Notes under the pieces: model-generated
What the model saw: the letters and a program-made list of their open reading frames with translations, nothing else
Database searches by the model: none
Told to the model about the DNA's origin: nothing
Position numbers and translations under genes: made by a program
From: Chthoniobacterales bacterium
Lineage (GTDB): Bacteria; Verrucomicrobiota; Verrucomicrobiia; Chthoniobacterales; Terrimicrobiaceae
Assembly (NCBI GenBank): GCA_014879575.1
Contig: JACSRU010000138.1
Coordinates: forward strand, 1-42,677
Reading direction: 5' to 3'
Length of the DNA stretch: 42,677 nt
Part shown: in pieces, positions 2,290 through 6,442 of the stretch
Layout: each line of letters opens with the position of its first letter
Numbering within the stretch: position 1 is the stretch's first letter

Positions 2290-3822
2290 CTACATCATCT
2301 TCGCCCCCATCTCGGCCAGCGCACTGCGTTCCCCCTTGCTGAGCGAAATGTGCGCCGTGATTTTCTGACCCCGGAGACGGTTGCGGGCATAGACGAGGCC
2401 GTTTGACCGGCTGTCCACGTAGGGATTGTCAATCTGCGCGGGGTCTCCGACCATCACCAGTTTGGAACCTTTCGACATGCGGGTCACGACGGTCTTGGCT
2501 TCAAGGGGAGTGAGCTGTTGGGCCTCATCGAGAACAAAGAACCGGTTGGGAATCGAGCGCCCGCGAATGTAACAAAGGGCTTCGATTTCCAGGAGTCCGC
2601 GTTCCATGAGCTGTTCGTAGGGTTTGACGATCGGGTGGTGACTGCCGGCTCCGGGATGCGGTGGCTGTGGCCGGTGTTCGTGTTTTTTTCTATCCGATGC
2701 GTTGCGGGGCTTGCCGTCGGTGGGCGGCGGATTCAGCGGCAGGAGGACCTCGAAGGCATCATAGATCGACTGCAACCACGGATGCATTTTCTCCTGGAGG
2801 GTTCCCGGCAGGAATCCCAGGGTGTCTCCCATGGCGACCACCGGGCGACTGACGGTCATCCCATTGTAAATCCTCTGTCCGATCAACGAGAGCCCCGCCG
2901 CCACGGCCAGTAGGGTCTTTCCCGTGCCGGCCTGGCCGTAACACGTGATCAGCGAAATCTCCGGATCGAGCAGGGCATCCAGGAAACATTGCTGGCCCGG
3001 ATTGGCCGGGCGCAATTCGATGCCTTTCGGCATCTGCAAAGTGTGCGGCACATTCAGCCTCACGAAATGACCTTTCCCCAAATGCCGAGCGGGCATCAAC
3101 TTGTGCTCATCCACAGCCAGAAGGACGTATTCATTCACTTCCAGGGAACCAATGCGCGCTGTCTCAAGATCCAGCGAGCGGGAACTCCCAAACCGCTGGA
3201 GTTCGTAGGCCTCGACAGGAATCGAACGCATCTCATAGCCCTCCGCATCCTTCACCGCGACCTTGTCATTCTGGTAATCCTCACAGGTCAACCCGATGGC
3301 CATCGCCTTCAACTGCATGTTCAGATCCTTGGTCACCAGAATGGTCGGCAGTTCCTCCTGCTCCTGCAGCGCAAGACAGGTCCCCAAAATCCGGTGATCC
3401 ATGCGCTCCTGATCCGGCAGGATTTTCAAAAATCGTCGCATCGCCGGAGAAGTCGCATTTTTTCCCAACACTTCGTTAATCAAAATTCGGACAGAGCCTC
3501 CTCCTGCCGTGGCGACCCCCCGGGTCACCTTCCGGGCATTTTGTCCAAAAATCTGATTCAAAAACCGATGCACCTTCCGCGCATTCGCCCCCCGCTCTGT
3601 TTGCTCATTCTTAAACCGATCCAGTTCCGAAAGAACCTCGACCGGGATAAACACATGGTTGTTCTCAAACCGGTTGATGCTGTGCGAATCATGCAGCAAC
3701 ACGTTTGTGTCGATCACGAAATTCTTGACCCCGTTCGCTTGTCTCCGCCGTGGAGATTTCTCGGGTAACGGAAAAAACAAACTTTGTTCTTCGGGAGATT
3801 CAATCGCTGATGGCAAATGCAT
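2290..3822 (-). CDS. PIN domain-PhoH family ATPase (PhoH2/YlaK type)
   Basis: This is a fusion of an N-terminal PIN ribonuclease domain (VIDTNVLLHD at about residues 36-45, with acidic residues following) and a C-terminal PhoH-type P-loop ATPase (GQAGTGKT near 296-303, VLDEAQ near 430-435, GDPAQIDNPY near the end). PhoH2 proteins of this layout act as RNA helicase/nucleases and are often paired with toxin-antitoxin-like partners. No such partner is seen here. A proline/histidine-rich stretch at about 366-397 interrupts the ATPase domain. The frame stays open upstream to a TTG at 3936, but the ATG at 3822 is preferred because the extra 38 residues look non-conserved and would need that TTG. 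Neither start has a convincing ribosome binding site immediately upstream. Confidence 0.9.
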   Translation of the reverse strand: MHLPSAIESPEEQSLFFPLPEKSPRRRQANGVKNFVIDTNVLLHDSHSINRFENNHVFIPVEVLSELDRFKNEQTERGANARKVHRFLNQIFGQNARKVTRGVATAGGGSVRILINEVLGKNATSPAMRRFLKILPDQERMDHRILGTCLALQEQEELPTILVTKDLNMQLKAMAIGLTCEDYQNDKVAVKDAEGYEMRSIPVEAYELQRFGSSRSLDLETARIGSLEVNEYVLLAVDEHKLMPARHLGKGHFVRLNVPHTLQMPKGIELRPANPGQQCFLDALLDPEISLITCYGQAGTGKTLLAVAAGLSLIGQRIYNGMTVSRPVVAMGDTLGFLPGTLQEKMHPWLQSIYDAFEVLLPLNPPPTDGKPRNASDRKKHEHRPQPPHPGAGSHHPIVKPYEQLMERGLLEIEALCYIRGRSIPNRFFVLDEAQQLTPLEAKTVVTRMSKGSKLVMVGDPAQIDNPYVDSRSNGLVYARNRLRGQKITAHISLSKGERSALAEMGAKMM

Positions 3823-4121
3823 GGGCGTAGTTGGGTTGGGTGAAAAAACTCCACGGGAAAAATTGCGGAATCCGACAGCGAGGCTTTTCGGATGAAAAGA
3901 GGAACCAGGCGGAACTTGAGCGTGATATAAACTCAACCCACCCCAAATCTCCTCCCGTCATCCCGCGCCGCACCAAGGCGCACAAGCGATGACGATCCCC
4001 CGAAACCCCTCGGGGTTCCCCGTCACATTTCAAAACGTTCTGGACGTCAGACCGGGTCAAGGCTCTCACGTATCGCATTTCTTGCGAATTCGCGCAACTG
4101 AAACTTGACTCAATCGTCGGC

Positions 4122-4149
4122 GGACCAGACGGAGCTGGTCCCTCCAGGG
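4122..4149 (+). repeat. Palindromic repeat element, copy 1
   Basis: A 28-bp unit whose core is GGACCAG-ACGGAG-CTGGTCC (a perfect 7-bp inverted repeat around a 6-nt loop), followed by CTCCAGGG. It is identical to the 28 bp at 4269-4296. A degenerate relative with inverted orientation may lie at 4163-4185. Confidence 0.9.
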
Positions 4150-4210
4150 GCAAAGCGTGATTCCGGAGGGGCGACTTGTCCCCCACCCCATAGCGCGAAG
4201 TGCCACTTCT

Positions 4211-4234
4211 GGAGGGATGACCTCCGTGTCGTCC
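4211..4234 (-). repeat. Palindromic repeat element, inverted diverged copy
   Basis: Read on the minus strand, this has the same architecture as the copies at 4122 and 4269: GGACGAC, loop ACGGAG, GTCATCC, then CTCC. The loop is identical and the stem keeps pairing through one G-T position although its bases differ. Stem change with pairing kept suggests selection on structure. Confidence 0.75.
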
Positions 4235-4268
4235 GCCTCGGACTGTGCCATCCCAACCAACCGCCGAC

Positions 4269-4296
4269 GGACCAGACGGAGCTGGTCCCTCCAGGG
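4269..4296 (+). repeat. Palindromic repeat element, copy 2
   Basis: Identical over 28 bp to the element at 4122-4149, at a distance of 147 bp. It has the same 7-bp stem and ACGGAG loop. Confidence 0.9.
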
Positions 4297-4531: not shown

Positions 4532-6442
4532 GTGGCCGACGCTTTTTCGTTTCTCAATTTCCCCCTCCGGGAAGGAATCGTGAAAGCGGCTTCTCCATCG
4601 GGGTTCAAGGCGGCGCGGGATGCGGAACGCCGCAGGGTCAACGAGCAGAAACCCGTGGTGGAGGAGGACGACGCCGAGAACTATACCTGTCCCGATGCCC
4701 CGCAGCGGTTCTGGTTTTTCCTGAAGAGGCACAAGGCACTCATTGGAGCGGCCGCGACGGGAAACTTCCTCTCGGTATTCCTGATCATGCTGATCCCGTT
4801 GATCGCCAAGCTGGTGATTGACGAGGCGATTCCCGGGAAAAATGTGGGGCTTCTGGTCGGGTTGGCAGTGGCGTTGTTTATCACGCAGGCCGTGCGTTTT
4901 GTGATCGGATTCGGCCACGATTACCTGATCCAGTATATCGGCCAGCGGACGATTTTCGACATTCGTCGGGCGGTCTTTCATCACCTGCAGCTGCTGCACC
5001 TCTCTTTTTACGAAAAGAAGAAGACCGCCAGCCTGGTGAACCGGGTGATCTACGATGCGGCCGCCGTCCAGCAGTTCATCAATACGGCGTTTTCCTCCAT
5101 CGCCAACAGTCTTGTCTCGCTGCTGATCGCCCTGATCATCATGTTCCTGTTGAACTGGAAACTCACCCTGTTCTGCACGCTCACGCTCCCGGTCTATTTC
5201 GCCATCATCCACGCTTACAGAAAAAAACTGACCACCAAACATCACGAGGTGAAGGAACGTCAGTCCGTCCTGGCCGGGAAGCTGGGGGAAACCTTCGCCG
5301 GCATCCGGGTCGTCAAGTCGTTCGCGCAGGAGGATCACGAACGCCGCCGGTTTGTTCTCACGATCAAGGACAACTTCTACAGCGAGTTGGAACTGCCCAT
5401 GATTGGCACGCGCATGCGCTCGATTCTGGGGCTGTTCTTCATGTTCATCTACGCGATTGTGATTCTGGCCCTGGGTCTGGGCGCCATTGGCGGGAGCATG
5501 TCCATCGGTGGCTATGTGGCCTACACCAGCTACCTGTGGATGCTCTTTGGTCCGCTGGAAAGCCTCTCCGCGCTGATCCAGTCGAGCACAAACGCGCGCA
5601 CGGGGTTCGAACGCATCCTGTCGCTTCTCGACACCAAGCCGAGCATCCGCGAGGACGACAACCCGATCGTTCCGGAAAACATCCGCGGGCAGGTCACCTT
5701 CGAGAACATCGGATTTTCCTATGAGGGCCGGGAGGTGATATCCGACTTTCATCTCACGGTCGAACCCGGCGAGATTGTGGCGTTGGTGGGGCCGAGCGGC
5801 AGCGGAAAATCCACCCTCATGAGTCTCCTGACCCGGTTCTACGACGTGGAATCCGGACGCATCCTGATTGACGGGGTGGATTTGCGACGCCTCAAATACG
5901 ATGCCTACCGCCACCATCTGGGCATCGTGTTGCAGGAGAATTTTCTCTTCTCGGGAACTGTCGAGGAGAACATCCGGTATGGACGCCCCGAAGCCGGCAT
6001 GGATGAGGTGCGCCGTGCGGCGCGTCTGGCCAATGCGCTGGAGTTCATCGAGGAGATGCCGCAAGGATTTTCCAGCCAGGTCGGCCAGGGTGGCGGCGCG
6101 CTCTCGGGCGGCCAACGCCAGCGCATCGCCATCGCCCGCTGCATCCTGAAAGATCCGCGCATATTGATCTTTGACGAAGCCACGAGCGCATTGGACAACC
6201 AGAGCGAGGCCTTGATTCAGGCATCCATGGACACGCTGATGAGTGGGCGCACGGTCTTCATCGTGGCGCACCGCCTGAGCACCATCCGCAAGGCGGGACG
6301 CATTGTGGTGCTGGATCATGGCCGCATTGTCGAGGTGGGAACCCACGACGAGTTGCTGGCCCGAAAAGGTGCCTACTTCGGGCTTTATCGTCCGAAGATG
6401 GTCAGGGAAAATCCGGCCCTGGCACCCGAAGCGGTGGCCTGA
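4532..6442 (+). CDS. ABC exporter, fused membrane and ATPase domains (MsbA-like)
   Basis: A half-size ABC exporter that should dimerise in the inner membrane and drive export of a lipid, peptide or other substrate. A cytoplasmic N-terminal tail of about 65 residues is followed by a six-helix membrane domain (about 70-330) and an ATPase domain with Walker A GPSGSGKST (420-428), Q468, signature LSGGQ (524-528), Walker B ILIFDEA (544-550) and H-loop His580. There is no C39 peptidase domain, so a double-glycine peptide exporter is not supported. The frame opens at GTG 4532, directly after a stop codon. GTG 4580 is an alternative start with a better GGGAAGGA ribosome binding site. An HlyD-type adaptor follows after 2 bp, pointing to a tripartite export system whose outer-membrane channel is encoded elsewhere. 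Substrate unknown. Confidence 0.88.
   Translation: MADAFSFLNFPLREGIVKAASPSGFKAARDAERRRVNEQKPVVEEDDAENYTCPDAPQRFWFFLKRHKALIGAAATGNFLSVFLIMLIPLIAKLVIDEAIPGKNVGLLVGLAVALFITQAVRFVIGFGHDYLIQYIGQRTIFDIRRAVFHHLQLLHLSFYEKKKTASLVNRVIYDAAAVQQFINTAFSSIANSLVSLLIALIIMFLLNWKLTLFCTLTLPVYFAIIHAYRKKLTTKHHEVKERQSVLAGKLGETFAGIRVVKSFAQEDHERRRFVLTIKDNFYSELELPMIGTRMRSILGLFFMFIYAIVILALGLGAIGGSMSIGGYVAYTSYLWMLFGPLESLSALIQSSTNARTGFERILSLLDTKPSIREDDNPIVPENIRGQVTFENIGFSYEGREVISDFHLTVEPGEIVALVGPSGSGKSTLMSLLTRFYDVESGRILIDGVDLRRLKYDAYRHHLGIVLQENFLFSGTVEENIRYGRPEAGMDEVRRAARLANALEFIEEMPQGFSSQVGQGGGALSGGQRQRIAIARCILKDPRILIFDEATSALDNQSEALIQASMDTLMSGRTVFIVAHRLSTIRKAGRIVVLDHGRIVEVGTHDELLARKGAYFGLYRPKMVRENPALAPEAVA

Follow-up and report, generated by a model that had tools for sequence, protein, structure and literature searches.

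The palindromes that lie between positions 4122 and 4296 of the window, by which we mean the whole 42,677-nt stretch of DNA that was analysed, very probably constitute a small BIME of GGAG-tagged REP elements, which most likely spread non-autonomously with the help of a RAYT transposase. This kind of element is well known, but the family described here, which combines a GGAG tag with a fixed CTCCGT loop, appears to be undescribed, and our literature search found no published account linking GGAG-footed REP sequences with RAYT.

The cluster had originally been noticed for two identical copies of a palindrome with a 7-bp stem and the loop ACGGAG, and these were confirmed. Both read GGACCAG-ACGGAG-CTGGTCC on the plus strand (stem GGACCAG/CTGGTCC), positions 4122-4149 and 4269-4296 match exactly, and the longer segments 4111-4149 and 4258-4296 show 92% identity over 39 nt. 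The diverged, inverted copy at 4211-4234 does keep its pairing, as had been noted, since its stem GGATGAC/GTCGTCC forms six Watson-Crick pairs and one G-T pair around the same loop in its reverse-complement reading (CTCCGT). When the two identical copies are also read on their opposite strand, a conserved GGAG is found directly 5' of each stem, and with all copies made parallel the unit is GGAG + GGANNNN + CTCCGT + NNNNTCC, 24 nt in length. The corresponding pattern, GGAGGGANNANCTCCGTNTNNTCC, gives three matches in the window at up to two mismatches, against 0.00 expected from shuffled sequence, and all three are exact: 4122-4145 (minus), 4211-4234 (plus) and 4269-4292 (minus). The array consists of a type A unit (minus), a 65-nt composite spacer with a decayed unit, a type B unit (plus), a 34-nt spacer and another type A unit (minus), and it occupies a divergent gap, as its neighbours are a PIN-PhoH gene on the minus strand and an ABC exporter gene on the plus strand:

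2290-3936, minus strand: gene for a PIN-PhoH family protein (PF13638, PF02562), left neighbour, start probably near 3820.
4122-4145, minus strand: REP type A, GGAG foot at 4142-4145 and hairpin GGACCAG-CTCCGT-CTGGTCC (pattern match and fold).
4146-4210, no strand: composite spacer of 65 nt between facing tags, which holds a decayed REP and ends in ...GCGAAGYGCCACTTCT, a common end (64-67-nt versions occur elsewhere in the genome).
4165-4184, plus strand: decayed REP, GGAG followed by GGGCGAC-TT-GTCCCCC (sequence, and recurrence in composite spacers).
4211-4234, plus strand: REP type B, GGAG foot at 4211-4214 and hairpin GGATGAC-CTCCGT-GTCGTCC (pattern match; 66 type B copies in the genome).
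4235-4268, no strand: spacer of 34 nt between outward tags, conserved genome-wide, of the GYGGGCGGTTGGCG..GGATGGCACGG..CGAGGC type (seen from A/B pair spacers).
4269-4292, minus strand: REP type A, GGAG foot at 4289-4292 and hairpin GGACCAG-CTCCGT-CTGGTCC (pattern match; 71 type A copies in the genome).
4532-6442, plus strand: gene for an ABC exporter with membrane and ATPase parts (PF00664, PF00005), right neighbour, followed by an HlyD-type gene.

The spacer between facing tags is 65 nt long in the window, as opposed to the usual 19-21 nt, and it contains the degenerate relative that had been suspected near 4163-4185. This element, at 4165-4184, folds poorly by itself; nevertheless, we take it to be a real decayed unit, because the same kind of remnant recurs inside composite spacers of 64-69 nt at other loci of the genome. 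As for the intact units, the DNA fold of the type A copy at 4122-4145 has a predicted energy of -6.4 kcal/mol, which was equalled by five of 200 shuffled sequences. In the type B unit (4211-4234), the foot GGAGG can pair with the loop CCTCC and so rival the main stem, and this alternative is predicted to have the lowest energy when the 24-mer is folded alone as DNA. Such a pairing of GGAG with CTCC was considered and set aside as a feature of the family: it appears in the isolated type B fold but has no covariation support, because GTAG-footed RAYT hairpins likewise have TCC loops.

Further copies of the unit had been anticipated elsewhere in the genome, and the 3.6-Mb draft assembly to which the window belongs contains 140 exact matches to the pattern (68 forward and 72 reverse), whereas the control, the same pattern reversed, has no match at all. 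This count is a lower bound, because many contigs of this genome start or stop within REP units. Nearly all copies belong to one of two types, namely, type A, GGACC[ACT]G..CTGGTCC, with 71 copies, and type B, GGA[TC]GAC..GTCGTCC, with 66, and adjacent units alternate between A and B in opposite orientation. Where the tags of an A/B pair lie inside, the spacer measures 19-21 bp in 19 of 24 pairs; where they lie outside, it measures 34 or 35 nt in 22 of 24, and spacer sequences are conserved. These two fixed spacings, together with the alternating orientation of A and B, correspond to the lattice of a BIME composed of REPs. By a rough ORF caller, 42% of sampled copies fall within called ORFs, compared with 86% of random positions.

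Beyond this genome the motif is present in 19 of 58 close relatives and in 35 of 384 members of the class, and is absent from most of the latter. After the window's own genome, the richest in copies are G073 (68) and G130 (53). Named GTDB records with the motif belong mostly to Verrucomicrobia, Opitutia, Spartobacteria, Kiritimatiellae and Lentisphaerae, with further records from some Phycisphaerae, Fermentibacteria and others.

Compensatory changes were also foreseen by the original prediction, and strong covariation is indeed seen among relatives. In our search pattern, four stem pairs were free to vary, with loop, foot and the three outer pairs prescribed, and all four free pairs are Watson-Crick in 106 of the 130 matches from GTDB loci. 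Over 40 distinct units, 94.6% of cells are paired (74.6% after shuffling), 57 cells are doubly changed (18 after shuffling), and the covariation score reaches 0.518 (0.147 after shuffling), while no structure shifted by one to three columns scores above 0.086. The foot GGAG precedes 76 of 88 distinct CTCCGT hairpins. For a non-circular version of this comparison we used perfect-stem CTCCGT hairpins whose outer pairs differ from the search pattern, and 14 of these 17 distinct hairpins also carry GGAG. The stem base of the units is GG/CC.

The search for a RAYT had a mixed outcome: such a gene bracketed by REPs of the window type exists in a relative, G235, but none adjoins them in the window's own genome. 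The G235 gene encodes a Y1_Tnp protein of 173 aa (L288:2058-2576, minus strand) and sits between two copies of one REP pair. The left pair is formed by GGAGGGACGGGCTCTGCCTCGTCC and GGAGGGACGGGCTCCGTTCCGTCC; the right pair resembles it, although one of its units is degenerate, and the two spacers match closely. This is the only RAYT found bracketed by REPs with the CTCCGT loop. Two other RAYT genes of G235 (L303 and L304) are each bracketed by GGAG-GGACATC hairpins, and a gene of G353 (L291) by GGAG hairpins with another stem. More generally, among perfect hairpins located up to 400 bp from 110 RAYT-like loci, GTAG (17 loci) and GGAG (14) are the most frequent feet, and at 1-1.4 kb from these loci the same feet drop to three and two, respectively. 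The window's own draft genome yields six Y1_Tnp matches, and no REP of the window type, allowing up to three mismatches, occurs within 1.5 kb of any of them. One of the six (L033) lies inside RecG, and another (L034) has its own long inverted repeats.

One candidate for a linked transposase, L088, was discarded. Two type A REPs lie 191 bp away from it, but the gene is bounded by ATGGGGTCAAACTTTTAATCTTGCAGTT ends of its own, and this proximity is therefore probably fortuitous. At another locus of the window's genome (L035; G000:C154:17484-20705), a RAYT-like ORF of 267 aa stands beside mixed GGAG- and GTAG-footed hairpins whose stems are unrelated to the window REPs; they may represent a second REP system of this genome. 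We also observed that a 5.3-Mb genome of the same class, G198, has undergone an unusual expansion, with 134 Y1_Tnp matches, many of them within open frames of about 340 aa.

TnpA-REP proteins act on REP DNA that is single-stranded and folded: they bind, cleave and rejoin it, and they rely on foot, stem and loop to varying extents (PMC8266576). By analogy, the REP units described here would be non-autonomous passengers of a RAYT (TnpA-REP, a Y1 HUH nuclease of IS200/IS605 descent) that would recognise the GGAG foot, the stem and the CTCCGT loop in single-stranded DNA, cut beside the foot and rejoin the unit elsewhere. Both cleavage and mobility are inferred here from work on the TnpA-REP proteins of E. 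coli, Stenotrophomonas and Marinomonas. Arrays could then lengthen or shrink through recombination of the A/B lattice, and the copy in the window may have landed in the divergent gap between the PIN-PhoH and ABC exporter genes, where it would have partly decayed.

The closest known systems are the REPs of E. coli and Pseudomonas that are organised as BIMEs or REPINs (PMC2817692, PMC3116915), with which the present family shares a hairpin of 20-40 nt whose stem is immediately preceded by a tetranucleotide foot, a copy number above 100, subtypes in which stem changes are compensated, an alternating orientation of units, two conserved spacers and a RAYT gene bracketed by the same units, here in the relative G235. 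Differences are found in the foot, which is GTAG or GTGG there and GGAG here, in the fixed 6-nt loop CTCCGT, which contains the complement of the foot, and in the Y1_Tnp genes of the window's genome, which have no adjoining REP of the window type. Within the phylum, families GTAG-17, -19 and -20 of Opitutus terrae (Verrucomicrobia) have been assigned to the GTAG REP superfamily (Di Nocera 2013, PMC3733652). Our units resemble this superfamily, O. terrae included, in architecture, in phylum or superphylum, and in forming head-head and tail-tail dimers and A/B heterodimers. However, the foot variants listed for it are GYAG, GYRG, GTRG, GTMG and GTGG (PMC3733652), and GGAG falls outside them; the present family may nevertheless overlap with one of those from O. 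terrae. The CGTC REP superfamily (Di Nocera 2013) likewise comprises tagged short palindromes, mostly dimers, for which no dedicated transposase is known, but there the foot is CGTC and A/T pairs form the stem base, whereas here a GGAG foot precedes a GG/CC base. Finally, TIRYT or TIRtron elements (Di Nocera 2013; subclass 2.1 of Quentin 2018, PMC6006769) are represented by Y1 transposases in the same genomes, for example L088, but these elements terminate in long inverted repeats of their own, which carry a GGGGTCA motif and bear no relation to the window REPs.

On a replicon scale, the REPs of G130, whose chromosome is closed (C1; 4,730,447 bp), show a marked polarity: 52 of 53 single copies follow the replichore. 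They lie on the plus strand up to 2.02 Mb, with one exception at 297,660, on the minus strand from 2.12 to 4.21 Mb, and on the plus strand again at 4.68 Mb, such that the polarity flips between 2,019,665 and 2,119,219 and between 4,210,738 and 4,678,070. GC skew changes sign near 2.10 and near 4.47 Mb, the strand bearing GGAG is the C-rich strand, and the GGAG polarity runs against the base composition bias of its strand. The skew and a parS-like site at 2,155,199 suggest an origin near 2.10 Mb, whereas dnaA lies at the start of the record. As a general rule for the family, replichore polarity was rejected, for it is very strong in G130 but absent, as judged by local skew, in 102 GTDB loci.

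The original prediction left a choice between a REP- or MITE-like family and an element selected for its structure as a site for RNA or protein. Its REP component was borne out, while the other two found no support: single copies have unrelated flanks, and Rfam gives no match. A MITE, that is, a miniature DDE transposon bounded by terminal inverted repeats and flanked by target-site duplications, would account for units that are short, palindromic, dispersed, non-coding and present in many copies. It is nonetheless very unlikely, because single copies share only the 24-nt unit, as the flanks of 30 of them in G130 are unrelated outside this hairpin; in addition, the unit is polar, with a GGAG foot on one side only, the arrays follow the BIME lattice, and such hairpins bracket Y1 transposase genes and not DDE ones. 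That hairpins covary and tolerate G-T pairs would also be expected under selection at the RNA level, for instance of a transcription terminator at an mRNA 3' end, an attenuator or a protein-binding site, and an action on transcripts has been proposed for REPs elsewhere (PMC3733652). Against such a structured RNA element, Rfam gives no match in the window at the gathering threshold, the cluster stands between divergent genes and not downstream of one, the genes flanking the G130 copies run both ways, a single array contains units on both strands, and an RNA hairpin has no need of a one-sided foot. We therefore regard this explanation as unlikely, although REP units may have a secondary effect on RNA.

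The replichore bias of the G130 copies, contrary to the base composition of their strand, could instead indicate polar sites for chromosome maintenance, similar to KOPS, Chi or replication-arrest sites, that merely look like REPs. Yet copies in the window's genome are divided almost evenly between strands (68 forward, 72 reverse) within alternating arrays, the foot is unlinked to local GC skew in 102 single-strand GTDB loci (54 versus 48), and the motif is missing from most members of the class. Fork-coupled insertion, moreover, explains the pattern in G130 equally well, and we give this possibility hardly any weight.

Under the preferred reading, a REP family spread by RAYT, our analysis adds a widespread GGAG-tagged family, mostly from Verrucomicrobiota and their relatives, to a largely proteobacterial GTAG field. 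The L288 gene of G235 provides a matched transposase with which foot and loop specificity could be tested. In more practical terms, REP copies break assemblies and can lead both short-read binning and the annotation of repeats astray.

The Y1_Tnp match inside RecG (L033:349-3093, minus strand; G000:C169:3671-6415) deserves separate description, and it may be that such embedded domains, as well as the replichore polarity in G130, matter more than the window cluster itself. This RecG helicase of 915 aa contains an in-frame, RAYT-like Y1 HUH domain at about residues 441-562, between its DEAD and helicase-C parts, with intact HVH and YITRNP motifs, and bounded by 51-nt inverted repeats that contain GGAG-CACACCCG-TCC-CGGGTGTG. 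The recG genes of two genomes of the same genus, G003 (L350) and G001 (L351), have a short loop without the domain, and in G003 this loop keeps remnants of both hairpin ends in frame, which from its sequence looks like the scar of an in-frame deletion of the domain interior. In other genera, recG has a plain short linker at this position.

Could the REP units of the window's genome be moved by this embedded nuclease? In favour of this idea, HVH and YITRNP, the motif with the catalytic tyrosine, are both preserved in the domain, which is delimited by hairpins with a GGAG foot; these hairpins (CACACCCG-TCC), however, differ from the window REPs in both stem and loop, and a RAYT is usually specific for its own REP, which makes the idea very unlikely. 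If it were true, REP spread would be part of a fork-remodelling enzyme, and the transposase-derived domains of this clade would be kept inside housekeeping proteins and not as separate genes.

In a large survey, Y1 proteins of unexpected length were put aside as either fusions or errors of annotation (PMC6006769), and a literature search, with most subscription journals outside its reach, found no description of such embedded RAYT domains. If expressed, the insertions in RecG, AlaRS and LeuRS would represent a novel means by which a transposase persists in a genome. RecG proteins with the domain at the same place occur in four more genomes (L211, L212, L213 and L293), and related RAYT-like domains were found within long open frames for both housekeeping and restriction enzymes, in AlaRS (L214-L217), ThrRS (L218), ValRS (L219), LeuRS (L200, L220, L221 and L231) and the CPSase large chain, carB (L228), as well as in MmeI-type (L226), Eco57I-type (L229) and HsdR (L279) proteins. 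For any given gene the domain lies at about the same place, and the host protein continues on both sides of it.
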